64,000 nt of DNA from Haloterrigena turkmenica DSM 5511 (GCF_000025325.1 NC_013744.1:124001-188000); one strand, 5' to 3'; numbered from the stretch's first letter, positions 13,344-33,826 are shown. Notes: generated from the letters alone by a model not told the origin. A program made the numbers and translations.

Positions 13344-14588
13344 ATGTCACAGGACGACACACGAGAGTGTACCAGCGAAGAGACCGAGTCCGCCGACTCG
13401 AGCACGCCGATGCCGAGCGTAACGCGCCGCCGGACGTTATCGCTCGCAGCCACGGGACTGGCAGCGGGTGCGGTCGGTACCGCGCAGGCGAGCGACCACG
13501 ACGCCGAGGTCTGGGAGACCGACGGCACCTGGTACGCCGCGAACGGCGGGACGGTGTACGAGGGGCCGGACCACATGGACGCGATCCAGGCGGCCGTCGA
13601 TAGCCTCACCACCGGTCGAACCTCGAAGGAGAAGGTGCTCGTCAAGAACTCCGGATCGGTCGGCCCCCACTCGTGGGACGGCGACGTCAAGGCCGTCGAT
13701 CTGCCCAGTTACACCGTCATCGAACACAACGGGACGATCTCCGTCGAAGATACCGGCGAGGATCTGATCGTGCCGTTTCGCGCACAGAGCGTCGAATCGA
13801 TCGAGATACAGAACGTCACCATCGAGGGGAATCCCCGCTACGGCATCTGGATCCAGAGCTGTTCCGACGTCCAGCTGGGGACCATCAACATGTCGCTGTG
13901 GGACACCGAGACCGTCGGAATCGGGGTTCGCATCGACGACAGCGACGGCGGCCGGAGTCAGAACGTCTCGCTCGAGTACGCCTCCGTCGAGGGATCCCAG
14001 CACCACGCGGTGGAGACCTACGGCGTCGACGACGTCACGATCGGCACCGTAGAGACCGTCGACACGGGTGGCTGCGGACTGCTGTTGAACGACACGGCCT
14101 ACGCGACGGTCGATTACGTCAATGCCACGCGAGCGGATCAGGGCGGCGGCTACGCCGGCTTCCGATGTGCGAACGGCGCCGGACCGGAGATCGTCGTCAA
14201 TCGAGTCGACGCCGTCGACTGCGGTCGCGGAATCTTCACCGTCTCCGGGAGCGAGGGCATCGAGATCTACGACGTCTATCTCGACGGCAACGGCGGGAAC
14301 CTCGTCCAGGACACTCGGTATCTGCTCATCGACGGTGGCACCGTCACGAACACCGGGAGCAGCGGCATCCGGATCGACTCGCGGGCCAGCGACGATCATC
14401 CGCACTCGAGCGACGTCACGGTCCGAAACCTCGAGATCACGGGCAACGCCGAGTACGGCGTCTACGAGACCGGACCCGACACGGAATCGAACGCGATCGT
14501 CGACAACCACTTCTGTGACAACGCCAGCGGAGCGGTCGAGACGTACGCGAACAGTACGGACGTCAGCGGGAACACCTACTGCAGCTAG
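13344..14588 (+). CDS. Secreted right-handed beta-helix protein 1
   Basis: A 414-residue Tat-exported protein: TRRRTLSLAATGLAAGAVGTAQA (about 26-49) is the signal. The rest is a single parallel beta-helix with short repeats of the type xxIxIxNVTIxGN. It is a shorter paralogue of the proteins at 18737 and 31622. All share QAAVDSLTxGRxxKExVLV near the N-terminus, LPSYTVIE, an H-A-[VF]-E-T-Y block (here HHAVETYGVDD), a YA[GT]FR-x-ANG block and a cysteine/glycine-rich coil. It lacks the lectin domain of the other two. Beta-helix folds in such loci are usually polysaccharide lyases, galacturonidases or pectin esterases, but I see no diagnostic catalytic motif of PL1, PL9 or GH28. Activity is therefore unassigned; pectin or side-chain processing is inferred from context. 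Confidence 0.88.
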   Translation: MSQDDTRECTSEETESADSSTPMPSVTRRRTLSLAATGLAAGAVGTAQASDHDAEVWETDGTWYAANGGTVYEGPDHMDAIQAAVDSLTTGRTSKEKVLVKNSGSVGPHSWDGDVKAVDLPSYTVIEHNGTISVEDTGEDLIVPFRAQSVESIEIQNVTIEGNPRYGIWIQSCSDVQLGTINMSLWDTETVGIGVRIDDSDGGRSQNVSLEYASVEGSQHHAVETYGVDDVTIGTVETVDTGGCGLLLNDTAYATVDYVNATRADQGGGYAGFRCANGAGPEIVVNRVDAVDCGRGIFTVSGSEGIEIYDVYLDGNGGNLVQDTRYLLIDGGTVTNTGSSGIRIDSRASDDHPHSSDVTVRNLEITGNAEYGVYETGPDTESNAIVDNHFCDNASGAVETYANSTDVSGNTYCS

Positions 14589-14772
14589 GACGAATCGATC
14601 GCGGCGGGCACGTCCCGGGTCGCGAACGTCGACGGCGGAGACCACCAGCGATCGACGTCCGAGTCGATCCGAGAGCGGTCCGCCTCGCTCGTATCGCACG
14701 AGCGCGAGAACGAACACGACCGCGACTCGAGCCACCACGTATTTGATATGGGATCGGGATAACGTGTCCGCC

Positions 14773-15798
14773 ATGCGCCACGACGGGATCCAGTTTCACA
14801 ACGTCGGCGACGTGCGATCGCTCGAGGGTCGAGACGGGAAACTGCTGCAACGGGTTCCCGAGGCCGTCAGAACGGAACTGAACGACGGCGCGCAGTCGCG
14901 GATGCGCCGCCCCGCGGGCGTCGAACTCCGGTTCGTCCCCGACGGCTCCGCGACGGTGACGCTCTCGATGATTCCCGACGAAAACGCCGAGGAAAGCACC
15001 GTCCGCGTCTTCTGGGGCCCGATTCAGGGTTCGACGGCCGTCGTCGATTCCGAGCCGACGGAAATCGAGATCTCGATGCCGGAGAAACTCGCCGACCTCG
15101 AGCCGTCGGCCGTCGAGGACCTCGCGTTCGATCCCCGCGTCTGTCGGATCCAGTTATCGGGCGAGCACCGCAGCGGGCCGATAGCCTATCACGGCCTCGA
15201 GGGCGACGTCCGGTCGCCCCGCGAGGACGAACTGCCCGATCGGCGCTACCTCGCGTACGGCACCTCGATCACCGAGGGCGCGGCGCCGCTGGCCGAGCAC
15301 CTGACCTACGTCAGCCAGACGGCCCGTCGGCTCGACGCCGATCCGATCAACCTCGGCTCCTGTGGCACCGCCTACTGCGACGCCGCGATGGCCGACCACA
15401 TCGCCGAGCGCGACGACTGGGATATCGCGACGCTCGCGATCTCGGTGAACATGGTCGGCACGTTCGACCCGGCGGAGTTTCACGCCCGCGCCGAGCGCAT
15501 GGTCGACCGAGTCGCGAGTGCCAATCCGGAGAAACCCGTCGTCGCCATCACCGTCTTCCCTCATTCTCGGGACGTCTGTCGGAGCAACGGCGAGACCGAA
15601 CGCTGCGAGCGGTTCCGCGAGGAACTCCGCGAGGTCGTCGCCGAAACGCCCCACGAGAACGTGTCACTGCTCGAGGGGGCAGACCTGCTGCCGACTATCG
15701 GCGGGCTCACCACTGATCTGGTCCATCCCGGCGACGACGCGATGATCACGATAGGCGAGAGCCTCGCCGCCGAACTCGAGCCGTTGCTCGAGGACTGA
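14773..15798 (+). CDS. SGNH/GDSL hydrolase, probable carbohydrate esterase
   Basis: A 341-residue protein with an N-terminal beta-sandwich (about 1-155) and a C-terminal SGNH hydrolase fold. Block I is YGTSITEGAAP with nucleophile S165; block II has GSCGTAY; block III has N in ISVNMVG; block V is TDLVHPGDD with D315 and H318. The two-domain layout resembles bacterial SGNH acyl-esterases. In this cluster it most likely removes acetyl groups from pectin or rhamnogalacturonan fragments, which would be needed before intracellular glycosidases act; that substrate is inference. No signal peptide is seen. The ATG at 14773 fits the conserved start; GTG 14764 is possible. The longer open frame upstream overlaps the beta-helix gene and is a shadow. 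It is convergent with the rhamnosidase gene. Confidence 0.82.
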   Translation: MRHDGIQFHNVGDVRSLEGRDGKLLQRVPEAVRTELNDGAQSRMRRPAGVELRFVPDGSATVTLSMIPDENAEESTVRVFWGPIQGSTAVVDSEPTEIEISMPEKLADLEPSAVEDLAFDPRVCRIQLSGEHRSGPIAYHGLEGDVRSPREDELPDRRYLAYGTSITEGAAPLAEHLTYVSQTARRLDADPINLGSCGTAYCDAAMADHIAERDDWDIATLAISVNMVGTFDPAEFHARAERMVDRVASANPEKPVVAITVFPHSRDVCRSNGETERCERFREELREVVAETPHENVSLLEGADLLPTIGGLTTDLVHPGDDAMITIGESLAAELEPLLED

Positions 15799-15857
15799 CG
15801 ACGGAAACGGCACCGAGCCGCTGGGTCCGACCCGTCTACTGCGGCGCGTCTACGAGG

Positions 15858-18590
15858 TCATTCGAGGGCGAACCGGTAGGTACCCGATTCGACGTCGATC
15901 TCGAGCCGATCGCCCTCCCGAACGGCCGAGACGCCGTCGGGTAACGTCGCCGCGCCCTCGTCGCCCCGAACCGGTTCGCCGTCGACGATCGCGACGGCAT
16001 CGCCGGTGCTCGTTGGGAGGACGACCGTCGCCGACGCGTTCCACGGGATCGTCGCCTCGAGTCGGAACGACGCGCCGTCCTCGCGGTCCTCGTCCGCTTC
16101 GCGACTCCACGAGACCTCGACGGTGCCCCGCTCAGTCGGGATCCGGCCGGACGCCGACTCGAGTCCCGCATCGGGCGGGCGGATCTCGAGGTGTTCGCCT
16201 GCGACGCCGTCGGGACGAACGCCCAGAAGCGTCCGCAGAATGTACACCAGCACCGTCGCGCCCATGGCGTGGGACTCGCTGCGATTGTGCCGCTGATCGT
16301 CCGGCAGGGAGGAGTCGCGGCAGTGCCAGGTCTCCCAAGTGAACGTGCCGCCCTGTGCGAGGATGTTCGCCCAGCCGTCGTCCGCGGCGTTCGTCAGCAG
16401 GTCGACGACTGCGTCAGGGCGACCGGCGGTCTCGAGGGCCTCGAGCAGCCACGGCACCATCATCGGTCCCATCGCCATTCCCTGCTCGGCCGCGTGCTCG
16501 GCGACGGCGTCGACGTGCGCGTCGGGAACGAGACCGAACGCCAGCGGCAGTGCGTTGGCGTGCTGGGAGGCTGAGTCGCTCGCCTCGGTCGCGTCACAGC
16601 CGTCGACGTAGTAGTCGCCCCGACGGAGACGGTCGTCGATCGCCGACTCGAGCGCGCGCTGGCGGTCGCGGTAGTGCGCCCGCTCGCGGTCCGGTCGGTC
16701 GAGTTCGGCCGCGATATCGGCCGCCCGCCCGAGCGCGCTCGTACAGAGGACGTTGACCGTGGTCCTGACGGGCCAGTCCCGATCGTAGCCGTAGCGCATC
16801 TCGGGCGGCCAGTCGACGATCCCCTCCTCGTAAGGGCCGCCCTCGCCGCCCGAGAGGTTCGCGACGAGTCCCGTCTCGCCGTCGACGTGGCGCTCGACGT
16901 ACGCCGCGATCGCCGTGATGACGGGATAGGCGCGCTCGAGGATCGTCCGGTCGCCGGTCGTGCGGTAGTACCGCCAGACCCACTCGGGGAACGAGACCGT
17001 GAAGTCGGGGATGTCGCGCTTGCCGTCGCCGTTCGGATAGACGGCGTTCAGCCGGCCCTCGCCCGCCCAGTACCGGTAGTGCGAGCGGAGGAACTCCTCG
17101 ATCGCCTGTCGGCTCAGCGCGCGCTCCGCGAACGCTCGCATCGTCGTCCGCGAGACGTTGAAGCCGTCCATCAGGAACTGGCCCTTCTCGCGAGTCGGCG
17201 TGTCGACGAACTGCCCCTGACAGCCGTACAGCGCCGAGTGGCGCGCGAGGTCGAAGACCGCGTCGACCGTCTCGTCGTCGGACTCGAACGTCGCCGCCCG
17301 CTCGTCGGGGACGGCGTTGCGCGTCGCCAGCAGCCCCACCTGTTCGGGCTCGAGTACCTCGCCCGGATCGTCGATCTGCAGGTAGCGGACGCCGAGGTAG
17401 TTGAACGGACGGAACCGACACTCGCCCTCGCGCTGGACGTACTCGTAGCGCATGTCCGTCCACTGGGTCCCCTCCGTCTCGTCGACCGAGCCGTCGTCCG
17501 CGAGCCGGTAACCCGCTCTGAGCGCGACCCGGTGTCCGTCGGTTCCGTCGGCAAAGTGCACCTCGGGGAGCCCGGCGTAGACGCGTCCGAAGTCGACCAC
17601 GTACGAGCCGTCCTCGAGTCGGTCCATCGAGACGGGCTCGATCGGCAACCGAACGACTTCGGATCGCTGGGCGACGAGCCGTTCCCACGGCTCGGTCGGA
17701 TGGGTGCCGACGACGGTCGCGGGATCCCACGCTCCGGCGTCGAATCCCGGTTCGTCCCACCCGTCCGGAGATCGACGGCCGTCGATTATCTCGATCGGCT
17801 CCGCGATCTCGTCGTTTCGAAGCGGCGCGTCCTCTCGCCATTCGGCCTCGCGAACGCGCCACGATTCGTCGGTGACGACAGTGCGCTCGGTCCCGTCGGC
17901 GAACGTCACCTCGAGCCGGCAGACGAACCCTGGTTCGGCGGCGGGTCGCCCCTGTCCGGCGCCGTTCCAGTTGCACAGCGCGCCGACCGCGTTCTCGCCC
18001 GTCTCGAGGTCGTCCGTGAGGTCGACGGTCCTGTAGTATTGGAAGTCCGGATAGGACGCCGACGGGCCGCAGTCGACCGTACGTCCGTTGACCGAGAGCT
18101 CGTACCGGTGGCTCGCGGAGACGTACGCTCTGGCTCGCTCGATTTCCCCCTCGAGGGAGACCTCACGGCGCAGGTAGGTGAATCGACCGCGCTCGAACGC
18201 GCCGTCTCCCGGCCGGCGGATCCAGGCGGCCTCCCAATCGGCGGGCTCGAGCAGCCCCGTCTCCCATCGGGCTGGCTCACTCCACTCGCTCGGTTCGTCG
18301 GCCTCGTCCCACACGCGAACCGCCCAGTGGTATTCGGTTCCGGACTCGAGCGGCTCGCCGTCGTAGGTCACCGCCGGCCGGTCCGACGGTCGCTTGCCGG
18401 TGTCCCAACAGTCGGCCTCGCCGGGCGAGAGCCGGTCGGGAGTCGACGCGACGAGCACTCTGAACGCGGTTTGTCCGGCTCCGCGGCGATCAGTATCGAC
18501 ACGCCAGCGTAGGTCCGGTGTCGGGGTATCGAGCCCGATCGGGTCCGACGCGTACTCGGTTCGCAGGTCTACTGGCTGGTCCCCTGACAT
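15858..18590 (-). CDS. GH78 alpha-L-rhamnosidase
   Basis: A 910-residue cytoplasmic enzyme with the full GH78 domain order: fibronectin-like N-domain (LRTEYASDPIGLDTPTPDLRWRV), rhamnose-binding N domain (about 120-320), concanavalin-like middle domain, (alpha/alpha)6 barrel (about 430-790) and C-terminal beta domain. The catalytic loop reads DTPTREKGQFLMDG, with E468 the likely general acid, although the usual RDER is replaced by TREK. The general base is E753 in GGTFTWETWHC, matching the family WERW block. It would remove terminal rhamnose from rhamnogalacturonan fragments produced by the PL11 lyases and PL22. Rhamnose catabolic genes are not in the window. The ATG at 18590 is at the conserved start; the spacer to the divergent beta-helix gene is 146 bases. 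Confidence 0.93.
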   Translation of the reverse strand: MSGDQPVDLRTEYASDPIGLDTPTPDLRWRVDTDRRGAGQTAFRVLVASTPDRLSPGEADCWDTGKRPSDRPAVTYDGEPLESGTEYHWAVRVWDEADEPSEWSEPARWETGLLEPADWEAAWIRRPGDGAFERGRFTYLRREVSLEGEIERARAYVSASHRYELSVNGRTVDCGPSASYPDFQYYRTVDLTDDLETGENAVGALCNWNGAGQGRPAAEPGFVCRLEVTFADGTERTVVTDESWRVREAEWREDAPLRNDEIAEPIEIIDGRRSPDGWDEPGFDAGAWDPATVVGTHPTEPWERLVAQRSEVVRLPIEPVSMDRLEDGSYVVDFGRVYAGLPEVHFADGTDGHRVALRAGYRLADDGSVDETEGTQWTDMRYEYVQREGECRFRPFNYLGVRYLQIDDPGEVLEPEQVGLLATRNAVPDERAATFESDDETVDAVFDLARHSALYGCQGQFVDTPTREKGQFLMDGFNVSRTTMRAFAERALSRQAIEEFLRSHYRYWAGEGRLNAVYPNGDGKRDIPDFTVSFPEWVWRYYRTTGDRTILERAYPVITAIAAYVERHVDGETGLVANLSGGEGGPYEEGIVDWPPEMRYGYDRDWPVRTTVNVLCTSALGRAADIAAELDRPDRERAHYRDRQRALESAIDDRLRRGDYYVDGCDATEASDSASQHANALPLAFGLVPDAHVDAVAEHAAEQGMAMGPMMVPWLLEALETAGRPDAVVDLLTNAADDGWANILAQGGTFTWETWHCRDSSLPDDQRHNRSESHAMGATVLVYILRTLLGVRPDGVAGEHLEIRPPDAGLESASGRIPTERGTVEVSWSREADEDREDGASFRLEATIPWNASATVVLPTSTGDAVAIVDGEPVRGDEGAATLPDGVSAVREGDRLEIDVESGTYRFALE

Positions 18591-18701
18591 CGTCGTGTTC
18601 GTGTGCTATCGCTTCGGAGGCCGTAAAAGCGTACCGGCGCGGCCGCGCCGACTCTCGAGATACCCCATTCATCACTGGCCATGATTGTGTATATTATTAC
18701 A

Positions 18702-18713
18702 ATAAATATTTAT
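18702..18713 (+). promoter_or_regulatory. Promoter element of lectin-beta-helix gene
   Basis: ATAAATATTTAT is a perfect 12-base palindrome centred about 29 bases before the GTG start at 18737, so it probably contains the TATA box of a leaderless transcript. Its core AAATATTTAT is shared with sites before the PL11, third beta-helix and secreted GH2 genes. Confidence 0.55.
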
Positions 18714-18736
18714 GAACGGGTGTCGACCACCGTGTT

Positions 18737-20932
18737 GTGGTACGAGATACCGAACCGCAAGGTAGTGGCAACGCGAGCGCACACGAGTCCGGCCTGACGT
18801 TCGACCGGCGAACGATCCTCGGCCTGTTGGGCGTCGGCGGTCTCGCCGCGGCGTACGGGAGCGGAACGGCGCGAGCCGACGGCGGCCGGGCCGACGGACG
18901 ACACGGCGAGTCGGGCCCGACACGCAAGTGGAACCAGGACATCGATGCGCAGGGACACGACCTCTCGAATCTGGGGTCGCTCGAGGTCGACCACGTCTAC
19001 ACGGCAGCGCGGAACGCGGACGTGATCGTCTGGAAGGACGACGACGGCGTCTTCCACGCCGACGGGACGGACGGACACGTCGCGAGCGGCGAGGACGTGA
19101 TCGAGGTCACGCAGGCGGCGGTCGACAGCCTGACCGACGGGCGCGACTGGAAGGAGACGGTCGCGGTGGTCTCGCCGAGCACCGTCGGTCCGGTCGAGGG
19201 AAGCGGCGACGTACCGACCTACGAGGGCTCGGACGACATCGAGAGCATCGAACTGCCGAGTTACACCGTGCTGGATATGCCCGCGACGATGCATGTCGAG
19301 GACGAGGGCGATCAGGCGCTCGTCGTTCCGGTCGCGGCCTACGACGCCGAACACATCGAGATTCCGAACTTCAGAGTCGTCGGAAATCCTCGGTTCGGAA
19401 TGTTCCTCCGGAGCGTTCGGAACCTCCGGCTCGGGAACGTGAACGTCGAGATGACCGGCGAGAGCCCCCGCGGCGGCATCGGCGTCCGCATCGACGGCTT
19501 CGCCCACGGCCGCGGCGAGGACACCGTCCGCTGTACGGATATCCAGGTCGATTCGGTCTACGTCGAGAACTCGGGCGGCCACGCCTTCGAGACGTACGCG
19601 GTCGACCGCCTCCAGGTCGGCCAGGTCATCGCGAACGGCGTCGAGTCTGGCTGTGGCGTCCTGCTCAACGAGACCACCGACGCGACGGTCGGCTCCGTCG
19701 TCGGGCGGGAGATCGACCCCGGCGGCGGCTACGCCGGATTCCGCGTGGCCAACGGCACGCACGACGTCACCTGCGATCAGGTGGTCGTCCGCGGCGGCGC
19801 CCGCGGGATCTTCGGCGTCTCGGGCTCCCACGACATCACCATCGGAGAGGTGAACATCTCGGAGATGGGCGGCGGCGTCTTCATCGAGGACAACCAGAAC
19901 TTCACCATCGAGGGCGGCGTCGTCAAGAACTGCGACTGGGAGGCCGTGCGCATCCACTCGCGGTCGGACTACCAGCACGATCCCACGAACGGCGTGACGA
20001 TACAGAACCTCCGCACCTACGACGACCGGCCGGAGGAAGACCGCGAACAGAGTTACGGCATCTACGTCTCCGGCGGGCAGACCTCGAACGTCCGGATCAT
20101 CGACTGCGACGTGCGCGGCGGCGGCACCGATCAGAACATCCGGGTCGATGCCGACGAGACGATCCTCCGGGGCAACCACGGCGGCGGACTCGCGAAGGGA
20201 ACCGTCACCCTCGAGTCCGGCGCCGACCCCGCCGCGACCGTCGGGGGCGTCAGTCCGTTCGGCTACCAACAGCCGTCGCTGCGGGCCGATCCCGTCGAGG
20301 CGACGGACGCGACGTTCGCCTTCGATCACTACTTCGTGTGGAACGCCGACGCGGAGGCGTGGGATCTCCACCTCGAGTGGAAGCGCGATCCCGGCCAGGA
20401 CGTGGACGTCCAGTACGTCGTCGACAATCCGCGGGCGAACCTCGGTGCCCGCGAGTCGATGGGCGGCGGTGGCGAGCTCACGGAACTCGAGGCGGGGACC
20501 TACCGGCTCACCTCGGCGCTCAACGGCGACGACATCGTGATGAGCGTCGACGGCGACCTCGCCGACGGCGCGAACGTCTACAACGATACCTGGGGCGAGG
20601 CGAGCGGCCAGGTGTGGGACGTGACGGAACTCGAGGACGGCGTCTTCCGCATCAGCCCGGCCGACGCCGGCGGGCTCGCGCTCGAGACGGCCGACGGCGG
20701 GACCGACACCGGCACGAACCTCGAACTGGGCGCGTGGGAGGACGCCGACCACCAGAAGTTCGAGGCGAATCCGATCGCGCCCGATCGCTACTCGCTCGAG
20801 CCGACCCACGCGGACGACCTCGCGGTCGACGTCTGGGAGGTCGACCCCGAACCGGGCGCCGACCTGCGCCACTGGAACGTGACGAACAGCAGCAACCAGC
20901 TCTGGAAGTTCCAGGATCCCGAGGACGGATAG
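18737..20932 (+). CDS. Secreted beta-helix protein 2 with ricin-type lectin domain
   Basis: A 731-residue protein. The Tat signal is DRRTILGLLGVGGLAAAYG (about 23-42). A beta-helix spans about 90-500, homologous to the proteins at 13344 and 31622: VTQAAVDSLTDGRDWKE, LPSYTVLDMP, VVGNPRFGMF, GGHAFETYAVD, GGYAGFRVANG and RGIFGVSGSHDI. A linker (about 500-575) leads to a ricin B-like beta-trefoil (about 580-728) with QxW-type repeats (GQVWDV, HQKFEAN, NQLWKFQ). The lectin would tether the enzyme to polysaccharide. The GTG start is supported by its spacing from the TATA element; no in-frame ATG lies upstream. The catalytic activity is unassigned; a lyase or hydrolase on pectin side-chains or backbone is inferred from neighbours. 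Confidence 0.88.
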   Translation: MVRDTEPQGSGNASAHESGLTFDRRTILGLLGVGGLAAAYGSGTARADGGRADGRHGESGPTRKWNQDIDAQGHDLSNLGSLEVDHVYTAARNADVIVWKDDDGVFHADGTDGHVASGEDVIEVTQAAVDSLTDGRDWKETVAVVSPSTVGPVEGSGDVPTYEGSDDIESIELPSYTVLDMPATMHVEDEGDQALVVPVAAYDAEHIEIPNFRVVGNPRFGMFLRSVRNLRLGNVNVEMTGESPRGGIGVRIDGFAHGRGEDTVRCTDIQVDSVYVENSGGHAFETYAVDRLQVGQVIANGVESGCGVLLNETTDATVGSVVGREIDPGGGYAGFRVANGTHDVTCDQVVVRGGARGIFGVSGSHDITIGEVNISEMGGGVFIEDNQNFTIEGGVVKNCDWEAVRIHSRSDYQHDPTNGVTIQNLRTYDDRPEEDREQSYGIYVSGGQTSNVRIIDCDVRGGGTDQNIRVDADETILRGNHGGGLAKGTVTLESGADPAATVGGVSPFGYQQPSLRADPVEATDATFAFDHYFVWNADAEAWDLHLEWKRDPGQDVDVQYVVDNPRANLGARESMGGGGELTELEAGTYRLTSALNGDDIVMSVDGDLADGANVYNDTWGEASGQVWDVTELEDGVFRISPADAGGLALETADGGTDTGTNLELGAWEDADHQKFEANPIAPDRYSLEPTHADDLAVDVWEVDPEPGADLRHWNVTNSSNQLWKFQDPEDG

Positions 20933-21051
20933 CGGAGTCCGTTTCGGCTCGAAACCGCTCGTCCGTTCGCGTCGATCGGCGACCGACTGCGAGACGGTGA
21001 TATGTTGTAACGACCCAAATCTTGATATTCGTCCATCGAGTACATCGATTT

Positions 21052-21148
21052 GCGCACTGAACGTGCGCGGTACACGGAATAGCCTCTGGCAAGCCTATTC
21101 TCGTACATCTCCCGCCAGTGGGGAACCCCCACTAAACCCACTGGCGGG
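21052..21148. terminator. Hairpin cluster between convergent genes
   Basis: Two hairpins lie between the convergent beta-helix and PL22 genes. GCGCAC (21052-21057) pairs with GTGCGC (21063-21068). CCCGCCAGTGGG (21111-21122) pairs perfectly with CCCACTGGCGGG (21137-21148). The loop also contains CCCCACT, which can pair with the AGTGGGG of the left arm, giving a competing fold. Bidirectional termination is the simplest role; a remnant of an insertion-element end is also possible. Confidence 0.4.
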
Positions 21149-21265: not shown

Positions 21266-22450
21266 CTACTCCGCTACGCCCTCGAATGCCGGGAGTTCGT
21301 CGAGGTCGTCGGGAACATCGACGAGGTAGACGTCGCTGCCGTCGCCGTCGCGAGCGCGGGAGCTATCGAAGACGATGCTGTCTCCGTCGGGACTCAACCT
21401 CGAGTGGGGGTGAACGTCATCGTCGCCGCTCCAGCCGTGGACGGCCAGTTTTCGCGGCGTCCGGTACCCGCCGGTGTCGTCGTCCCACTCCCAAAGAAGA
21501 TCGAACGGAGCGCCGCGGTACGTACCGTCTCCGACGACCAGGTCGCGAGAGTTGCTGTGGAAATGCGTGTAGATGTCCGGCGCCGGCCACTCGTACCGCT
21601 CCGTGCCGTTGTATCGAACGTGCCCGAAGAACGCCGCCGGATCGTCGCGGCGACCCCGCCAGCCGTGGTAGCCGATCGTCTCGCCGTCGGCGAGCCAGTA
21701 CTCGTGGCCGACGGCCTCGTCCTCTCCGGTCTGTCGGACCGGCCACGTCTCGTCCGTCTCGAGGTTCAACACCCGGATTCGATCGACGTCCTCCCACGTT
21801 CCCTCCTCGCAGTACGTGACGAGTTCGGGCCGGGTCGGCGACGCGTTGACGTGGTTGAGCCACCGATCGTCCTCGACGTGGACCGTCGGCTCGCCGCCGG
21901 AGAGCGGGATCGAGAGCACCTTCGAGTGGGGACCGGCGTCCATCCGGTCGGCGATCCACTGCTCGCGATCGGCCGACCGTCCCTCGATGTCGAGCTTCTC
22001 CGAGAGCGCGACAACGGCTCGTTCCCCATTGGCCGTCCCCGCGGCGATGCTCCCCGCGTAGCCGTCGGGGCGTTCGTACAGCGGCGTCACCTCGAGGGAC
22101 TCGAGATCGAGCGTGACGAGCCGATCGTCGCACCAGAACAGCGCCGTCGACTCGGTCGCGACGCGGGTGACGCCGCTGATCGCCGCGGGGAGGTCGGTCA
22201 GCTGCGTGATCTCGCCGGACTCGAGGGCGATCGAGTAGAGCTGCTGCGTTCCGTCGCGATCCGAGCGGACGAGCAGCTTACGGCCGTCGTCGTACCACCC
22301 CGGTTCGGTGAAGTACAGATGTCGGCTGTCGGCGTTCGAATCGCTCGTCAACCGCGTGACCCGCGCGCCGGTCTCCGGATCCGCGTATCGGTCGCACTCC
22401 GACGGTAGCGTTCGGCCGGCGTTCGGCCCCTGTCGTAACTCGTCTGCCAT
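21266..22450 (-). CDS. Oligogalacturonate lyase, PL22
   Basis: A 394-residue cytoplasmic lyase that would split digalacturonate and short oligogalacturonides into unsaturated galacturonate. The fold is a seven-bladed propeller with WD-like strands (HLYFTEPGWYDDGRKLLVRSDRDG, SIPLSGG). Metal-site histidines are visible in IGYHGW, DIYTHFHSNSRD and VHPHSRLSPDG, the last equivalent to the QVHPH motif of characterised enzymes, with D replacing the usual Q. The ATG at 22450 begins MADELRQGPNAG, next to the family start; the open frame upstream runs into the DUF2264 gene. The product should isomerise to 5-keto-4-deoxyuronate, whose KduI/KduD-type processing is not encoded here. It is probably co-transcribed with the upstream DUF2264 gene, 64 bases away. 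Confidence 0.92.
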   Translation of the reverse strand: MADELRQGPNAGRTLPSECDRYADPETGARVTRLTSDSNADSRHLYFTEPGWYDDGRKLLVRSDRDGTQQLYSIALESGEITQLTDLPAAISGVTRVATESTALFWCDDRLVTLDLESLEVTPLYERPDGYAGSIAAGTANGERAVVALSEKLDIEGRSADREQWIADRMDAGPHSKVLSIPLSGGEPTVHVEDDRWLNHVNASPTRPELVTYCEEGTWEDVDRIRVLNLETDETWPVRQTGEDEAVGHEYWLADGETIGYHGWRGRRDDPAAFFGHVRYNGTERYEWPAPDIYTHFHSNSRDLVVGDGTYRGAPFDLLWEWDDDTGGYRTPRKLAVHGWSGDDDVHPHSRLSPDGDSIVFDSSRARDGDGSDVYLVDVPDDLDELPAFEGVAE

Positions 22451-22514
22451 CTGGCTCAGGAGACGTAGTCGAAACGCAAAAAGATACTCGACGGTGCGAT
22501 CGACTCGAGTCCGA

Positions 22515-24374
22515 CTACTCCGTCCCGTCGGCCCCCGAAATATCGCCCGCAGAACACTCGAGGAGTCGGTCGCCGTCGGCCGTCTCGATCGCGACGCGGT
22601 CGTCGTCGGCCGCCACGAGTTCCGGCGTCCGGTCGAAATCGACCGGCCCCTCGGCCGTCGCTCGGACGGCAGTGGCCAGCCAGTGTTCACCGGCGTCGTA
22701 CCGCTTTCGGAGCGTCGGGACGACCGTGCGCGGGTGCATGAGGTTCGTGTTCGGTTCCTCCGGGACGATCTCCGGCCGGCGATCGCCGCACAGGTCGGTG
22801 ACGAGGGTCGTTCCGTTGGGATACGCGGCGCGGGCGGTCGCTCCCTCGGTCTCGTGGGTGAACCGCGTCGGATCGTCGTCGCCCGTCCGATCGAGCGCGA
22901 ATCCGCCCTCCTCGCTGTGAAGCGGTCGCGACGTCTCGAGGCGGTGAACTCGGACGTGCCAGGGGAGCGCCGGCGCCAGCCAGGTTTCGACGCGGACGTC
23001 GTCCCACGGGATCCAGAGCGATTTGAGGGTCGTCCCGTCGACTTCGGTCGCGGCGACCGACTCGGGGGCGGGGGTTTTGTACCGGTCGCCGTCCGGGCTG
23101 AGCGCGAGCGAGCTGTCGTGTCCCGCCTGCCCGAGGCCCACGTTCTGCCCGGCCATGGAGAACCCGAAGGTCGCGGAGTAGGCGAACTTCCCGTACTTCT
23201 CCGGCCCGTAGATGCTGTCCTGGGCGAGCGAGAGCGCGAACAGGTGGTCGTCGTCCCGACAGATGACCTTCCGAGGCTCGGACTGGACGACCGTCTCGGG
23301 TCGGTCGGGTAGCGGCTCCTCGTCGGCCTGCCAGAACGGGTGCGTCGGCTCGAGCGCGAGCGGCAGGAACGCCTTCGTCGCCCAGTACGGCGAGTTCGGC
23401 GAGTTGTACACTTCCGACGTCTTCAGCGTCGGATATCGGTAGCCGACCGACAGCAGGCCGCCGTCCGTGAAGATCGGCTGGTTCAGCCACCAGCGGACGT
23501 TCCGCGCCCAGAGCCCTCTGAGGACGCCCCACGGGAGCGGGTTCAGATCGGCGAACGCGAGCGCGCCCCAGAACCCGGCCTGTGCGAAGCGGTAGGTGAG
23601 GCTCCGTCCGTAGGGGAGCGCGCGCCCCTCGTCGTCGAACCAGTGGACGTGCTCGGTCGCGAACTCGGCGGCCCGCTCGCGAAACCGGCGAGCCCGCTCT
23701 GGGTCCTCGTCGCCGCAGACGGCGGCGTAGACGAGCCCGTAGAAGTGCATCGCCCACGGCAGGTAGTAGTCGATCGGGCTCCCGTCCCCTACCGGCCCGT
23801 CGGTGTACCAGCCCTCGCCCTGATAGAACGACTCGAGTCGATCCAGCGACGACTGCGTGCCCTCCCAGTCGTGGTCGGCCCCGACCGACCGGAGCCCCAT
23901 GTTGACCATGACCCGGAAGAACAGCCAGTTGCAGTCGTGGAGTTCGGCGTCGTTGATCTGGTTTAGCCAGCGGACGAGCCGTTCCCGCTCCGGTTCGGAG
24001 AGCGGATCCCAGATTCGGTCGGGCGTCAGCGCGAGTCCGAGCCCGATCGCGGCCATCTCGACGTGTTTCTGGGAGTAGTCGTCCGCCTCGCCCCAGTACT
24101 CCTCGTGGTCCGGATCCGTTCCGTTGACGAGGCCGCGTCGAACGAGGTCCCACTGATCGGACGTCCCGTGGACGCTCAGCGGGACGATCCCCCACAGCGG
24201 TCTCGCGAATCCCTCGAGTTCGGCGGCGGCGGCGGGGAAGTGAGCGCCGGTCGCCATCGGTCGCACCCGCGCGCCGCCGGGACTGGCGTGCTCGTACAGC
24301 GGTTCGACGAGGTCCTCGACGGCCCGTTCGAAATCGGCTCGCGTCCGAAGCGGATTCTCCGCGACTGGGTTCAT
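22515..24374 (-). CDS. DUF2264 family protein, probable exo-glycosidase
   Basis: A 619-residue cytoplasmic protein of the DUF2264 type. The N-terminal (alpha/alpha)-barrel half (about 1-370) has blocks such as GFARPLWGIVPL, NDAELHDCNWLFFRVMVN, PIDYYLPWAMHFYGLVYA and YRFAQAGFWGALA; the C-terminal half is beta-rich. The ATG at 24374 gives MNPVAENPLRTRADF; an ATG at 24413 is weaker. The family recurs in polysaccharide loci, and I recall at least one member acting on glucuronides, but that memory is not proof. Its place directly before PL22 on the same strand, in a locus for acidic polysaccharide, suggests action on a uronic-acid-containing oligosaccharide. No catalytic residues can be named with confidence. 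Confidence 0.8.
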   Translation of the reverse strand: MNPVAENPLRTRADFERAVEDLVEPLYEHASPGGARVRPMATGAHFPAAAAELEGFARPLWGIVPLSVHGTSDQWDLVRRGLVNGTDPDHEEYWGEADDYSQKHVEMAAIGLGLALTPDRIWDPLSEPERERLVRWLNQINDAELHDCNWLFFRVMVNMGLRSVGADHDWEGTQSSLDRLESFYQGEGWYTDGPVGDGSPIDYYLPWAMHFYGLVYAAVCGDEDPERARRFRERAAEFATEHVHWFDDEGRALPYGRSLTYRFAQAGFWGALAFADLNPLPWGVLRGLWARNVRWWLNQPIFTDGGLLSVGYRYPTLKTSEVYNSPNSPYWATKAFLPLALEPTHPFWQADEEPLPDRPETVVQSEPRKVICRDDDHLFALSLAQDSIYGPEKYGKFAYSATFGFSMAGQNVGLGQAGHDSSLALSPDGDRYKTPAPESVAATEVDGTTLKSLWIPWDDVRVETWLAPALPWHVRVHRLETSRPLHSEEGGFALDRTGDDDPTRFTHETEGATARAAYPNGTTLVTDLCGDRRPEIVPEEPNTNLMHPRTVVPTLRKRYDAGEHWLATAVRATAEGPVDFDRTPELVAADDDRVAIETADGDRLLECSAGDISGADGTE

Positions 24375-24507
24375 GGCTGAGATATACTGACACGGGTCCA
24401 AAACGATTGCCATACTGAATCCGTTTTGCTTCGAACCCGTGTCACGCTCGAGGCGACGGACTCGACCCGTCCCGACCGAGGATTGATGATGGTTCGTCGA
24501 ACACTAG

Positions 24508-27705
<3,198 letters not shown>

Positions 27706-27824
27706 GAGCTGCCAAGCCGTGCGGTCCAGTGCCGGTCGGTTCCGATATGGCGAACGACGCATGATTACGGTTCACCTGACGGAACGGTGGTTTTATGCCT
27801 CGATGCGACACACTGTGCGTCAAC

Positions 27825-28007
27825 ATGTCACGCACTCGGGACACGCTGGCGGCAACGACTGCGAATCGGGGAGTGCCCGATCGCGACACCGAACCGACGG
27901 CGGTCGACCGGATCGACGACGCGCTCGAGAAGTGTCGTATCTGGAGTGAGTACGTCTCCGTCGAGGGGCTCGTTCGGACGACTGAGCGCTGGTCCCGGTA
28001 CTGGTGA
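27825..28007 (+). CDS. Small protein coupled to GH115 gene
   Basis: A 60-residue frame beginning MSRTRDTLAATTANRGVPDR and ending TTERWSRYW. TTTTATG at about 27790-27796 is placed to start a leaderless transcript near the ATG at 27825. Its TGA overlaps the GTG/ATG start of the GH115 gene, so translation could be coupled. The C-terminal part is acidic and plausibly helical (DRIDDALEKCRIWSEYVSVEGL). I do not recognise a family. It could be a leader peptide or a genuine small protein. Confidence 0.4.
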   Translation: MSRTRDTLAATTANRGVPDRDTEPTAVDRIDDALEKCRIWSEYVSVEGLVRTTERWSRYW

Positions 28008-30904
28008 TGAACGTGGACACGATGATAACCGACAGCCCCGCAGACGGCGACGTCCCGATCGTCTCCAGGGACGCGATCGCCGATCTGTACGTCGACGGGG
28101 ACGATCACGAGGTCGCGACCGTCGCGGCGACCGATCTCGGTGACGATATCGAACGCGTCACCGGACACCGACCCGCGGTCACCGGTTCGCTCGCCGAACT
28201 CTCCGGGACCGCCGTGATCGTCGGAACGATCGGTCGCTCCGAGGGCGTTGACCGATGCCTGGAGTCGAGCGACGTCGACGTCGCGACGCTGGCGGACGAG
28301 CGGGAGAGTTTCGCCGTCGGAACGGTCGACGAACCGCTACCGGGCCTCGAGTCGTGCGTGCTGATCGCCGGGAGCGATCGCCGCGGGACGGCTTACGGAG
28401 CGTACGAGCTGTCGAAGCGGATCGGCGTCTCGCCGTGGTACTGGTGGGCCGACGTGCCGACGCCCGACCGCGACGCCCTTTACGTGACCGAGGGCCTCGA
28501 GCGGATGGGACCGCCGTCGGTTCGGTACCGCGGCGTGTTCATCAACGACGAGGACTTCGGGTTCCGCGAGTGGGCACAGGAGACGCACGATCCGGCCACG
28601 CCGGACGGCATCGGGCCGAAGACCTACGAACGGCTGTTCGAACTCCTCCTGCGACTCAGGGCGAACACGATCTGGCCCGCGATGCACGAGGGAACGACGG
28701 CGTTCTACCGGTGTGAGGGCAATCGCGAGGTCGCCGAGCGGTACGCCATCGTCGTCGGCACCTCCCACTGCGAGCCGATGCATCGCAACAACGTCGACGA
28801 GTGGGACCCGGAGACGGACGGCGAGTGGAACTACGCGACCAACGCAGAGCGGATCCGCGAGTACTGGACCGACCGCGTCGACGAGGTCGCCGACAGCGAG
28901 AATATCTTCACGGTTGGCATGCGCGGGATCCACGACTCGGGGATGCCCGGCGGCGACACCCTCGAGGAACGCGTCGACCTGCTCCAACGAGTGATCGACG
29001 TCCAGCGCGAGATCCTCGAGGAACATCACGAGTCGCCGGTCGAGGCCGTCCCGCAGATTTTCTGCCCGTACAAGGAGACGCTCGAGCTCTACCGGAACGG
29101 CCTCGAGGTGCCCGAAGACGTCTGCGTCGTCTGGCCCGACGACAACTTCGGCTACCTCCGGCGACTGCCGACCGGCGAGGAGCGCGCGCGGTCCGGCGGC
29201 CACGGCGTCTACTACCACCTCTCGTACTGGGGACGTCCGCACGACCACCAGTGGCTGTGTTCGATCCCGCCGGCGCTGATTCGCGAGGAACTGCACCGCG
29301 CCTATCGCCACGGCGTCGACACGCTCTGGATGGCGAACGTCGGCGATCTCAAGCCGGCGGAGAAAGAGGCGGAGTACTTCTTCAAGTTGGCCTGGGACGT
29401 CGAGGGCGTCGCGGAGCGATCGACGAGCGACTGGCTCGCCGAGTGGGCCGCCCGCAAATTTGGCCCTGCCCACGCGGACGATATCGCCGACGTCCTCGCC
29501 GAATACTACCGACTCGCGCTCGCCCGCAAGCCGGAACACGTGGGCTGGAACGCGGTGTACCCGAACACCGAGAAGAACGAACCGACGTTCAGCGCAGTCC
29601 GCGACGGCGACGAGGCCCGGCGACGCCTCGAGGCCTACGAGCGGATCGACGAGGCGGCCAGCGAGATCGGCGAGGCGCTGCCCGAGGAATCGCGAACGGC
29701 GTACTTCCACCTCGTCGAGTACCCGATCCGCTGTGCGCGGGCGATGAACGAGGGGGCCCTCGAGGCGATGCGGAGCCGGCTCTACGCGGGTCAGGGCCGG
29801 ACGAGCGCGGCGACGTACGCCGAACGATCACGGGCGGCGCTCGAGCGCATCGACGCGGCGACGACGCGGTACAACAACTCGTCGGACGGCAAGTGGCGCG
29901 GGATGATGTCCGCGAGCCCGCGGGAGTTGCCGGTGTTCGACCAGCCCGCGACCGGGCGCGTGACCGACGAGCAGGGTCCGACCCTCGAGATTGCCGTCGA
30001 AGGAACGCCGAGCGTCGCCGGAACCGGTCCGCGAATCCGTCGGGTGCCGACGATCGTGCAGGGCGTCGATCGGCGGCGGTTCGTCGACTGCTACAACCGC
30101 GGGACGGGCACGATCGAGTGGACGGCGACGACCGACGACTGGATCGACCTCGAGCGAACGTCGGGAACGTTCGAGGAAGACGAACGGCTGTGGGTCGGCG
30201 TCGACTGGGACGTTGCGCCGGACTCGCGGACGACCGGCCGTATTCGGATCGCGGGCGCCGGCCGGGAACTCGAGGTCGCGGTGCCGATCCGGCCGCGAGA
30301 GCGGCCGACGACGGACGAGGATCACGACGAGTTCGAGCCGGGAGTCGAGCGAGCGCCGGTCTTCGTCGAATCGAACGGACGCGTCGCGATCGAGGCCGAC
30401 CACCCGACAGCCGTTCAACAGGCGAAGACGCGCTGGGAACCGGTCGACGGCCTCAGTCGAACGACCGGGACCGCGATGGCCAGTCGACCGGTCAACGGCT
30501 TACGCATCGACGCCGATGCAGTGTGCGAGCGAGCGGCGCGCCTCGAGTACGATTTCGAGGCCGACGCCGACGAGGTTCGCGTCGAGGTCCAGTTGCTGCC
30601 GACGCACGCGCCGACCGAGTCGACGCCCCACCGGTACGCGGTCGCGATCGACAGCGCCGCGCCGACGGTCGTCGACTTCGACGCGAACGGCGGCGAACAC
30701 GACCCGCAATGGCAGCGGAACGTGCTCCGCTCGAGCGTTCATTCGACGACCGACCACGAACTCGATCGGTCCGGCCGTCACACGCTGTCGCTGTACGCGG
30801 TGGATCCGAGCGTTGTCGTCGATCGAGCGGTCGTCTACACCGATGGCGACGACCGCCGATCGTATCTTGGACCGCGAGAGACGCGGGATCGACGGCTCGA
30901 GTGA
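28007..30904 (+). CDS. GH115 alpha-glucuronidase
   Basis: A 965-residue protein (GTG at 28004 is an equally possible start) without signal peptide. It matches GH115 in VRYRGVFINDEDFGFREWA, LRLRANTIWPAMHEGTTAF, VGTSHCEPMHRNN, GMRGIHDSGMPGG, WPDDNFGYLRRLP and YYHLSYWGRPHDHQWLCS. The N-terminal carbohydrate-esterase-like domain covers about 1-165, the TIM barrel 165-470, a helical domain to about 630, and a C-terminal beta-sandwich from 690. GH115 enzymes remove (4-O-methyl-)glucuronic acid from xylan or arabinogalactan. Glucuronate released here would reach mannonate, the substrate of the dehydratase at 33917. Its presence shows that the locus targets glucuronate-decorated glycans as well as rhamnogalacturonan. 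Confidence 0.92.
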   Translation: MNVDTMITDSPADGDVPIVSRDAIADLYVDGDDHEVATVAATDLGDDIERVTGHRPAVTGSLAELSGTAVIVGTIGRSEGVDRCLESSDVDVATLADERESFAVGTVDEPLPGLESCVLIAGSDRRGTAYGAYELSKRIGVSPWYWWADVPTPDRDALYVTEGLERMGPPSVRYRGVFINDEDFGFREWAQETHDPATPDGIGPKTYERLFELLLRLRANTIWPAMHEGTTAFYRCEGNREVAERYAIVVGTSHCEPMHRNNVDEWDPETDGEWNYATNAERIREYWTDRVDEVADSENIFTVGMRGIHDSGMPGGDTLEERVDLLQRVIDVQREILEEHHESPVEAVPQIFCPYKETLELYRNGLEVPEDVCVVWPDDNFGYLRRLPTGEERARSGGHGVYYHLSYWGRPHDHQWLCSIPPALIREELHRAYRHGVDTLWMANVGDLKPAEKEAEYFFKLAWDVEGVAERSTSDWLAEWAARKFGPAHADDIADVLAEYYRLALARKPEHVGWNAVYPNTEKNEPTFSAVRDGDEARRRLEAYERIDEAASEIGEALPEESRTAYFHLVEYPIRCARAMNEGALEAMRSRLYAGQGRTSAATYAERSRAALERIDAATTRYNNSSDGKWRGMMSASPRELPVFDQPATGRVTDEQGPTLEIAVEGTPSVAGTGPRIRRVPTIVQGVDRRRFVDCYNRGTGTIEWTATTDDWIDLERTSGTFEEDERLWVGVDWDVAPDSRTTGRIRIAGAGRELEVAVPIRPRERPTTDEDHDEFEPGVERAPVFVESNGRVAIEADHPTAVQQAKTRWEPVDGLSRTTGTAMASRPVNGLRIDADAVCERAARLEYDFEADADEVRVEVQLLPTHAPTESTPHRYAVAIDSAAPTVVDFDANGGEHDPQWQRNVLRSSVHSTTDHELDRSGRHTLSLYAVDPSVVVDRAVVYTDGDDRRSYLGPRETRDRRLE

Positions 30905-31509
30905 CACCCGCGTCCGGTTCCGTCGAGAGACTCGAGATCCCAAGCCGGCGGAACGAGCGAGGATTACAGATAGCAGGGCCGTCGCGGACGTGGCCGGTCA
31001 GTAGCGATCGCAGATGGAACGCCTAATTCGGCCATAGCGGACGGATTTAGTCACAGGTAGCACGGTGTCGGTTCTATTTTTACAGCCATACGTTCGTATA
31101 CGAGGGGGCGGACGCTGTCGACATCGATCCGGATCACGGGCGGGAAACCGGTATGTGGGCCCGCTATATCGCGAACGGTGACGGCCGTCTCGGACCGCTG
31201 ATCGTCGGCCTCGAGATATCGAGCGACGATCCGGTGGGAGCGAACGAGAGTTCGAAAAGCGATGTCGCCGTCCCGGGCCCGACCGTCGTAGTACGGTCGG
31301 CTGTTACGTTCTACCTGATTTATCGATATTCACCTCGAGACGAGCATCCGGCTTCACCGAACGAATTCCGTCCGAAGGGTATAGCGAATTCCGTTCGGGG
31401 GAAAAACATGTCGGGATAGTCCGTCGATTACTGTGGCTGCTAATCGAACGGATTACCGTATCGAGCGGAGTGTCGAGACCTATATCAGTGTGCAGTCCGA
31501 TACTTCTAT
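30905..31509. other. Intergenic region without recognised gene
   Basis: About 600 bases between the GH115 and third beta-helix genes. A frame at 31153-31419 lacks halophile-like composition, ribosome site or family resemblance, so I do not call it. GC falls towards the right, where the promoter of the beta-helix gene lies. Confidence 0.45.
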
Positions 31510-31544
31510 ATAAATATTAATTCACGTACAAAAGTATTATATAA
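31510..31544 (+). promoter_or_regulatory. Promoter region of third beta-helix gene
   Basis: ATAAATATTAAT at 31510-31521 matches the AAATATTWAT element found before three other secreted-protein genes. A second TATA-like run, TATTATATAA, follows at 31535-31544, which would start transcription near 31565-31570. Having two AT cores suggests either two promoters or a regulator site plus a TATA box. Confidence 0.5.
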
Positions 31545-31621
31545 TGATGTATAGTGGAGTATGCTGTCGCGGGATTGCGACAGATAATATCATGAAAAAC
31601 GATAGCAAGGAGATCAAGTCG

Positions 31622-33826
31622 ATGGAACGCGATCACACAGACGAGGATCGAATCGCGAATACGAACACGTCCGACGCCACAGCGCTCTCGACGGGGCGAC
31701 GCGGTGCGCTGGCGATGCTCGGCGCGACCGGACTCGCCGGGCTACTCTCGGGGACCGCGGGCGGCAGGCAGGGGTCCGGCGATGAGCCGACGACAGGCAA
31801 CCAACCGTGGTACGAGTGGGACGCCGACGTCGACGCCGGCGACAACGGACTGTACGACCTCGAGCGGCTACAGACCGAACACGTCCACACGGCGGCGCGA
31901 GACCCAGAAGTCGTCGTCTGGGAGGACGACGAGGGCGTCTATCACGCCGATGCGGACGAGACGACCGTCTACAGCGGCGAGGACTACCTCGAGGCGATCC
32001 AGACGGCCGTCGATAGCCTGAGCGAGGGTCGAACGGAGAAAGAGCGCGTGCTGGTCGCCGCATCGGGAACGATCGGCCCGGCGGACGAACTCACGCAACT
32101 CGAAGTCCCGAGTTACACGGTCCTCGACGTCGCGGGCACGATTTACGTCGAGGACGACGGCGAACAACCGATGGTCATTCCGGTACGGGCCTTCGACGAG
32201 GAGGAGATCGAGATTCCGCGCCTCTCCATCGTCGGGAACCCGCGGTTCGGCATCTGGATTCAGGACACCGACTCCGTCAAATTGGGCGATATCGACATCC
32301 GGTTCGAGAACACCGAGGGGTTCGCCAACTACTGGGAGGTCGACGCCCCGGGCTGGCCGCCGACGTCGTTCGATCCCGACGCCAGTCGAGAGGAGATTCT
32401 GGCCGACCCGGGCTGGGTCGGCAAGTTCTGCGAGGGCGTCCGGGTCGACGCCCGCGCTCGAGACGAGTCAGCGTCGGACGTCTTCATCAGTTCGGTCTAC
32501 GTCGAGGGCGGTCGCCACCACGCCGTCGAAACGTACGATACCGAGCGCGTCGTGATCGATCAGGTGATCGGCGTCGGCATGGGCGGCTCCGCGGTCATCC
32601 TGAACGAGACCGAGAACGCGGCGGTCAACAACGTCGTCGGGGAGAACCCCGAGTCCGAGACCTGGTACGCGACCTTCCGCTGTGCGAACGGCTGCGAGAA
32701 CGTCTCAGTCGGTCAGGTCGTCAGTCGCGACGCCCCGCGCGGCATACACCTCACGACCGAATCGAACGAGATCACGGTCGGCGAGGTCAACATCATCGGC
32801 GCTCGGTACCACGGCATCAAGGTCGACAACGTCGAGAACATCACGATTCAGGGCGGCCTCGTCAAGAACGTCGTCCGATCGGGCGTGCTCTCGACGGCGA
32901 ACGGGTTCTCTTGCTCGAACCTGCACGTCGTCGACGACCTCACCGACGAGGAACGCGAGGAAATCAATTTGCCTGCCGGCGACGGTGCCCCGGACGATCC
33001 CACCCAGACCCACGGCATTCAGTTCTTCGGGCGGAACGGCCGGATCGTCAACAACGACGTCCGCGACGCCGGAACGGAGGCGAACGTCGAGGTCGAGGCG
33101 CTGAACACCATCGTCCGAGACAACCTCGGCGGCGGGTTCCGATCGGGCACGGTCACGCTCGAGAGCGGCGCGGACGAAGCCGCCCGCGTGACCGGGATCG
33201 CCGGCCGCTTCGATGCCGCGTTCGACCTGCGCGCCGGACTCGAGGAGGCGCCCGCCGGCCCGACGGCCTGGTCGCACCGCTTCGAGTGGACCGGCGACGG
33301 CTGGGACCTCGTCTTCGAGTGGGAGACGGACCCCGGCGAAGACGTCGCGCTGTCCTACATCGTCGACCAGACCCAGGCCAGCGAGAGTGGCGTCGAACTC
33401 GACCCCCTCGAGCCCGGGACCTACCGGATCGACGCCGGTCACACCGGAATGCCGCTGACGGATGCTGACGGCAACCTCGAGATGGACGCGTGGGACGGCG
33501 ACGACGATCAGCGCTGGATCGTCGAGGAAGACGGCGACGCCTACCGGATCGAACTCGCGGCGACCGGCGAGGTGCTCGAGGTCGAGGGCGGCGAGATCGA
33601 AGACGGCGCGAACGTGGGCGTCGGTACCGACAGCGGCGCCGACCACCAGCGCTGGGATATCAAGCCGATCTTCACCCCCTCCGGCGAGTTCCGCTACTCC
33701 GTCCACCCGGTCGGTGCCGATCAGGGGTTAGACGTCTCGGGCGCCGGCGAAGACCCCGGGACGAACGTGCTCCTGTGGGAGCACAGCGGCGTCGCCCACC
33801 AGCAGTTCACGTTCGAAGAACTGTAA
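31622..33826 (+). CDS. Secreted beta-helix protein 3 with ricin-type lectin domain
   Basis: I place the start at ATG 31622 because AAGGAG lies 9 bases before it; ATGs at 31544, 31547 and 31592 are in frame. This gives 734 residues. TGRRGALAMLGATGLAGLLSG is the Tat signal. The beta-helix (about 70-520) shares with its paralogues QTAVDSLSEGRTEKERVLV, LPSYTVLDV-like VPSYTVLDVAG, VGNPRFGIW, GGRHHAVETYDTE, WYATFRCANG and RGIHLTTESNEI. It alone has an insertion of about 35 residues near 240-275 (ANYWEVDAPGWPPTSFDPDA). A ricin B-like trefoil covers about 595-734 (DDQRWIV, DHQRWDI, AHQQFTF). Catalytic activity is unknown; binding and cleavage of pectic polysaccharide is inferred. Confidence 0.87.
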   Translation: MERDHTDEDRIANTNTSDATALSTGRRGALAMLGATGLAGLLSGTAGGRQGSGDEPTTGNQPWYEWDADVDAGDNGLYDLERLQTEHVHTAARDPEVVVWEDDEGVYHADADETTVYSGEDYLEAIQTAVDSLSEGRTEKERVLVAASGTIGPADELTQLEVPSYTVLDVAGTIYVEDDGEQPMVIPVRAFDEEEIEIPRLSIVGNPRFGIWIQDTDSVKLGDIDIRFENTEGFANYWEVDAPGWPPTSFDPDASREEILADPGWVGKFCEGVRVDARARDESASDVFISSVYVEGGRHHAVETYDTERVVIDQVIGVGMGGSAVILNETENAAVNNVVGENPESETWYATFRCANGCENVSVGQVVSRDAPRGIHLTTESNEITVGEVNIIGARYHGIKVDNVENITIQGGLVKNVVRSGVLSTANGFSCSNLHVVDDLTDEEREEINLPAGDGAPDDPTQTHGIQFFGRNGRIVNNDVRDAGTEANVEVEALNTIVRDNLGGGFRSGTVTLESGADEAARVTGIAGRFDAAFDLRAGLEEAPAGPTAWSHRFEWTGDGWDLVFEWETDPGEDVALSYIVDQTQASESGVELDPLEPGTYRIDAGHTGMPLTDADGNLEMDAWDGDDDQRWIVEEDGDAYRIELAATGEVLEVEGGEIEDGANVGVGTDSGADHQRWDIKPIFTPSGEFRYSVHPVGADQGLDVSGAGEDPGTNVLLWEHSGVAHQQFTFEEL

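Follow-up and report, generated by a model that had tools for sequence, protein, structure and literature searches.

Secreted Right-Handed Beta-Helix Proteins of Haloterrigena turkmenica as Putative Polysaccharide Lyases of an Unassigned Family

We analyzed a 64,000-nucleotide stretch of Haloterrigena turkmenica DSM 5511 (GCF_000025325.1, NC_013744.1:124001-188000; hereafter the window, with positions counted from its first letter), in which three genes encode secreted proteins with a common right-handed beta-helix core. On balance, we read proteins 1-3 as putative secreted polysaccharide lyases of a family that, by sequence, is without assignment in Pfam, NCBIfam, RefSeq naming, and the Protein Data Bank (PDB). 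The neighboring genes suggest that its substrates are acidic plant-type polysaccharides, rhamnogalacturonan being an example. A preliminary description of the window had proposed an enzyme of lyase, hydrolase, or esterase type; among these three options the gene context favors a lyase, with catalysis itself putative.

Results and Discussion

The three proteins are encoded as follows.

13344..14588, plus strand: protein 1 (P0001), 414 amino acids (aa); Tat-type (twin-arginine) signal and beta-helix, no lectin; from the open reading frame (ORF) and paralogy
18737..20932, plus strand: protein 2 (P0002), 731 aa; Tat-type signal, beta-helix, linker module, ricin-type lectin
31622..33826, plus strand: protein 3 (P0003), 734 aa, or 760 if translation begins at 31544, from where the frame is open; Tat-type signal, beta-helix, linker module, ricin-type lectin
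20492..20917, plus strand: ricin-type beta-trefoil lectin of protein 2 (Pfam RicinB_lectin_2, 1e-16; ThreeFoil match, residues 586-727)
33506..33817, plus strand: ricin-type lectin of protein 3 (Pfam RicinB_lectin_2, 2e-27)

Pairwise BLAST similarity among the three is far above chance (38% identity over 395 columns, 5e-61; 38% over 766, 2e-129; 37% over 335, 1e-50) and, as judged from sequence, makes them paralogs, as the preliminary description had proposed. The beta-helix part occurs in exactly three copies in the whole 5.44 Mb genome. Pfam recognizes Beta_helix and NosD-type repeats in all three proteins, whereas the ricin-type lectin is confined to proteins 2 and 3. No catalytic model reached cut-off in the Pfam scan, NCBIfam added nothing for the helix part, and PL1, PL6, and PL9 (polysaccharide lyase, PL) profiles had no match in a full Pfam scan at E up to 1. 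No curated PL, glycoside hydrolase (GH), or carbohydrate esterase (CE) model of these two libraries claims these proteins, which agrees with the earlier view of a single family without assigned function. The Tat-type signals and the two lectins were likewise called correctly, and among 64 family members 97% retain the twin-arginine RR. The motif blocks HA[VF]ETY and YA[GT]FRxANG recur in all three proteins, and RGI near a turn is followed by VSGS or TTES; the first block needed widening to QxAVDSL[TS]xGR, as protein 3 reads QTAVDSLSEGR.

Using mature protein 1 and a 14-sequence alignment as input, AlphaFold2 returned a right-handed beta-helix with a predicted local distance difference test (pLDDT) score of 92, and a second prediction from a thinner alignment gave the same fold (pLDDT 81). 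The model, its full-length structure matches, and the detection of Pfam Beta_helix in 14/14 members (E up to 0.1) place the family in the right-handed parallel beta-helix superfamily. The nearest solved structures are AlgE6 (Z 38.3) and AlgE4 (Z 37.8), with a root-mean-square deviation (rmsd) of 2.2 Å over about 330 residues at 15-17% identity, followed by phi29 gp12, tailspikes, AlgE7, K5 lyase, PL6 lyases, and inulin fructotransferases. Such helices are widespread, and a common fold does not show function; by analogy, the inclusion of both uronate epimerases and lyases in the AlgE fold group may lend support to a lyase.

The likeness to AlgE4, AlgE6, and AlgE7 (PDB 2pyg, 5lw3, 8ja4) covers the helix itself (rmsd 2.2-2.6 Å over 320-332 residues; AlgE7 at Z 30.7), the A-module fold (Z 38, 332 residues), and the placement of a polar site on one face. 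AlgE enzymes use Y149, D152, H154, and D178 (PMC7385640, PMC8824271) and have the motif YG(F/I)DPH(D/E) (PMC8824271), whereas this motif (YGFDPHE) is absent from proteins 1-3. Counted by eye from both ends, the HxxExY of the family lies one coil further on than the AlgE motif, in agreement with the structural match (model 4-365 on chain 2-380). We do not claim that HxxExY is the AlgE YxxDxH position for position with a His/Tyr swap, as profile alignments slip by whole coils.

Conservation in the 64 members, combined with strand register, delimits a candidate active face.

13929..14228, plus strand: candidate face of protein 1, codons R196 to R295, including H221, E224, N249, Y270, and R274
19487..19804, plus strand: the same candidate face in protein 2, R251 to R356 (H282, E285), by alignment to protein 1
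32441..32740, plus strand: the same candidate face in protein 3, R274 to R373 (H300, E303), by alignment

In protein 1 numbering, R92, R196, H221, E224, and N249 are invariant across the aligned members, and Y270, R274, and R295 are kept at 96-98% by weighted count. Strand-start motifs fall on consecutive coils of the model: GVRID (194-198), AVETY (222-226), GLLLN (245-249), GFR (272-274), and GIF (296-298). Strand alternation directs the mostly hydrophobic V195/I197, V223/T225, L246/L248, F273/C275, and I297/T299 inward and R196, E224, N249, and R274 outward; H221, Y270, and R295 occupy the turn that immediately precedes the strand. In this register-based geometry, R196, H221, E224, N249, Y270, R274, and R295 would form one outward face over five consecutive coils, and these seven near-invariant residues therefore do not look purely structural. 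The preliminary description had nominated the His and Glu of HAxETY as catalytic candidates; both rank with the best-conserved positions and, judging by strand register, share an outward face with the Arg of YAxFR within three coils instead of pointing into the core, although the candidate site is larger than that pair. Seven of the 12 most conserved polar residues fall within these 35 of 365 positions (hypergeometric P 2e-5, descriptive only, as the 35-position window was picked after conservation was seen).

Bacterial relatives keep R196, E224, N249, Y270, R274, and R295 throughout, and H221 in all except Treponema. Since Y226 is Phe in Cellulosimicrobium while Y270 is kept in the bacterial relatives, Y270 appears to be the better candidate for a catalytic tyrosine. 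Asp198 is conserved at 80%, leaving one invariant carboxylate in the candidate site. By analogy, this residue set (His, Tyr, Glu, Asn, and several Arg, with no conserved acidic metal cluster) would suit a metal-independent beta-helix lyase. Two such lyases are the phage K1 lyase, with a site of Y311, H373, and R397 (PMC8822698), and the fucoidan lyase FdlA, with a His/Tyr/Arg-type site (PMC9410043). The K1 capsule lyase (PDB 7w1c) appears in the structural list at Z 28.8, and FdlA is not among the structural matches listed. The likeness of the family to both is in residue types, not matched positions, and no sequence relation was found. With PL6, PL1, and PL9 the family has the fold class in common (PL6 structures at Z about 30), in contrast to the missing profile matches noted above.

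Gene Context

The three genes sit in a rhamnogalacturonan-type degradation locus, and the setting among PL11, GH78, and PL22 genes is as first described.

60-1616 and 1902-3890, plus strand: two PL11 rhamnogalacturonan lyase genes (Pfam RGL11_C, 1e-229 and 1e-233)
4183..6192, plus strand: GH42
14770..15798 (start approximate), plus strand: GDSL-type esterase
15858..18590, minus strand: GH78 alpha-L-rhamnosidase
21266..22690 (start uncertain), minus strand: PL22 oligogalacturonate lyase
22515..24413, minus strand: DUF2264 protein
28004..30904, plus strand: GH115 alpha-glucuronidase
33917..34960, minus strand: UxuA mannonate dehydratase

Further genes of the locus encode a GH2, a GH4-type protein, a galactonate dehydratase, and a 2-dehydro-3-deoxygluconate/galactonate kinase. 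Downstream of it, ORFs 42272-43540, 44583-45266, and 59841-61070 appear transposon-like by eye (two TnpB-like, one transposase-like). PL11 and PL22 occupy the same loci as the beta-helix family and likely act in the same pathway on the same substrate class, but are unrelated to it in sequence; both are beta-propeller folds.

This setting recurs in other genomes. Protein-1 orthologs have GH78 nearby in 7/7 cases and PL22, GH4, and an esterase in most; protein-2 orthologs have GH78 and PL22 nearby, and protein-3 orthologs mostly GH115 and UxuA. In Halopiger xanaduensis, GH28 and PL22 flank the protein-2 ortholog, and genes annotated as L-rhamnonate dehydratase and L-rhamnose mutarotase are close by. 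Among the 41 haloarchaeal genomes carrying the family, 18 have PL22 and 16 have PL11, each against 4/350 of the others, and GH88/105 is found in 27/41 against 33/350 (Fisher P 2e-15; co-occurrence P values are indicative only, because the genomes are not independent). Because GH88/105 unsaturated uronyl hydrolases act on lyase products, this context favors a lyase. In 14 genomes no more than 15 kb separates a GH88/105 gene from a family gene, and PL22 stands in many loci, so that enzymes processing unsaturated uronates are linked to many, not all, members. In several Haloferacaceae the GH105 is within 8 kb, and in one genome (G122) it adjoins the family gene, with 285 bp between the matched stretches. 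Of the nine YteR active-site residues used for comparison (PMC4528949), seven are retained in the G122 GH105, namely H132, W141, D143, M147, H189, W211, and W217; the other two lie outside the alignment shown.

Neither PL11 nor PL22 is present in nine GH105-linked genomes (six Haloferax species plus G122, G286, and G336). Searches of these nine with Hepar_II_III, PL1, PL9-like, and PL6-like profiles found none in the cluster: the only two Hepar_II_III matches were on different contigs, and the only PL1-type match, in G286, was marginal and 18 kb away. Apart from the family protein, the G122 cluster encodes no secreted candidate enzyme. The rest of the Haloferacaceae clusters comprises an ABC transporter, a GDSL esterase, an enolase-superfamily dehydratase, a KdgD-like dehydratase, and a uronate-dehydrogenase-like gene, which by size and context looks like a uronate dehydrogenase; Haloferax clusters also contain a 2,5-dioxovalerate dehydrogenase gene. 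The uronate and rhamnose pathway identities are partly presumed from general knowledge of haloarchaeal sugar catabolism.

A second unassigned Tat-type secreted family (c49, about 500-700 aa; L085:2008-4110, L086:823-2364, L087:7317-8813, with BLAST relatives in L107 and L124) was observed near GH105 clusters, with or without a beta-helix family gene. It has an N-terminal PWYDWDGDVDA...L..LGSL motif in common with proteins 2 and 3 and matches the family profile weakly (E 3e-6 to 3e-5).

Distribution and Phylogeny

A genome search found the family in 41/391 haloarchaeal genomes and 20/86 genera, with Natronoglomus mannanivorans AArc-m2/3/4 among the carriers. RefSeq names the relatives mostly 'RICIN domain-containing protein' or 'right-handed parallel beta-helix repeat-containing protein', and literature searches turned up no described haloarchaeal beta-helix lyase family. 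Bacterial members are rarer: an Opitutales metagenome-assembled genome and a second Verrucomicrobiota genome, Cellulosimicrobium and Nonomuraea (Actinomycetota), and Treponema saccharophilum. The Opitutales contig (G391 contig C121; L097, L098, L100-L103) has a 2036-aa open frame with several stretches matching the family profile. With only 2/388 genomes positive, Verrucomicrobiota are ruled out as the main reservoir. A PL8 lyase gene is located about 3.5 kb from the Nonomuraea relative (L126:18502-21228), the two being separated by a GH3 gene.

In a maximum-likelihood tree of the 64 members, proteins 1-3 fall into three clades (support 100/100, 100/95, and 95/88, with a 100/98 core around protein 3), each containing orthologs from other genera. 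The three are therefore old paralogs, and the tree rules out a recent tandem expansion; the three copies counted earlier are confirmed, but the term expansion does not suit their age. The copies may differ in substrate. One protein-1 ortholog (G191) is split into two ORFs (L063:9400-9906, 9925-10644), apparently a broken gene.

Alternative Readings

Several observations weigh against a lyase. The best NCBIfam match of the G122 GH105 is a beta-galactosidase model, well below cut-off, and Pfam GH88 relatives can differ in specificity. The lyase search in the nine GH105-linked genomes, PL8 included, covered part of the PL families, and the PL8 profile is uninformative there, as it matched none of the nine but no control genome either. 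The c49 protein is a second unassigned secreted protein in some of the same clusters, His221 is replaced by Asn in Treponema, and 11 family genomes have no GH88/105, PL11, or PL22 above cut-off. Two Haloferax genomes (G152, G189; L105:1711-1791, L106) keep the syntenic GH105/uronate cluster without a family gene and with no gene remnant by tblastn, so GH105 need not partner the family protein. As the gene occupies one slot in the Haloferax cluster that is empty in these two, we regard it as an optional module plausibly supplying substrate. The same persistence of the cluster would fit a non-catalytic role, in which the secreted protein binds polysaccharide or serves in surface display and the conserved face is its binding groove, as would the ricin-type lectin of many members and the use of beta-helices as adhesins (the adhesin PfbA is in the structural list). 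We consider such a binder improbable: the His/Glu/Tyr/Arg/Asn set is constant in members from several phyla, in contrast to the variable Lys and surface loops, and in G122 a binder would leave the cluster without its sole secreted candidate enzyme.

A distant GH28-like beta-helix hydrolase, in which Glu224 would work with a second acid, for example Asp198, to break a rhamnose/uronate bond, is unlikely but deserves more weight. GH28 polygalacturonases and rhamnogalacturonan hydrolases have the fold class and pectin context in common with the family, and sub-threshold GH28 similarity appears in 6/14 members (best relative 3e-6), protein 1 scoring 15 bits against the Pfam GH28 profile versus 22.9 required and proteins 2 and 3 not being listed. 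The adjoining Haloferacaceae uronate-oxidation genes would accept free uronates, and the 11 genomes without unsaturated-uronate markers also fit hydrolysis. Profile alignment with neighboring GH28 proteins gave no usable residue correspondence. Set against a hydrolase, the catalytic NTD, DD, GHG, and RIK of GH28 have no conserved columns in the 64 members, the family site being Arg/His/Glu/Asn/Tyr. The single invariant carboxylate, the three invariant Arg plus Tyr/His, which would be unusual for such an enzyme, and the GH105 linkage argue further against this reading. That the proteins are AlgE-type uronate C5-epimerases is very improbable despite AlgE being the best fold match, as the AlgE motif is missing and the gene context is catabolic where that of AlgE is biosynthetic. 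Pectin methylesterases (CE8) are beta-helices too, yet an esterase removing acetyl or methyl groups from pectin is the least probable reading, given a site with no invariant Ser or Asp pair and a separate GDSL esterase adjoining many members.

Proposed Mechanism

As a lyase, the protein would bind an acidic polysaccharide along the face from R196 to R295, in this locus most likely a rhamnogalacturonan-I-like polymer of rhamnose and uronic acid and, for protein 3, perhaps a glucuronate-bearing polysaccharide. R196, R274, and R295 with N249 would hold and neutralize the uronate carboxylate, while Tyr270 and His221, tuned by Glu224, would abstract the proton at C5 and donate one to the glycosidic oxygen, so that beta-elimination would proceed with no conserved acidic metal site. 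After uptake through the linked ABC transporter, the unsaturated oligosaccharides would be opened by GH105 or PL22 and their sugars fed into rhamnose and uronate oxidation pathways. Where present, the lectin may hold the enzyme on galactose-type glycans. Such a mechanism would be a variant of those of known beta-helix lyases, with a residue set unmatched among those examined.

Implications

More tentatively, and with somewhat less confidence than in the lyase assignment itself, we propose a new PL family of beta-helix lyases that would work without metal, carry an invariant Arg-His-Glu-Asn-Tyr-Arg-Arg face, cut rhamnose/uronate polymers in hypersaline habitats, and have scattered bacterial relatives. 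If this is true, the family would fill part of a gap in the enzymes by which haloarchaea act on acidic polysaccharides. Knowing its activity would shed light on what carrier loci digest, for instance in N. mannanivorans, would add a salt-tolerant enzyme family in which a defined site can be mutated, and would give a function to proteins that RefSeq labels only by their RICIN domain or beta-helix repeats.

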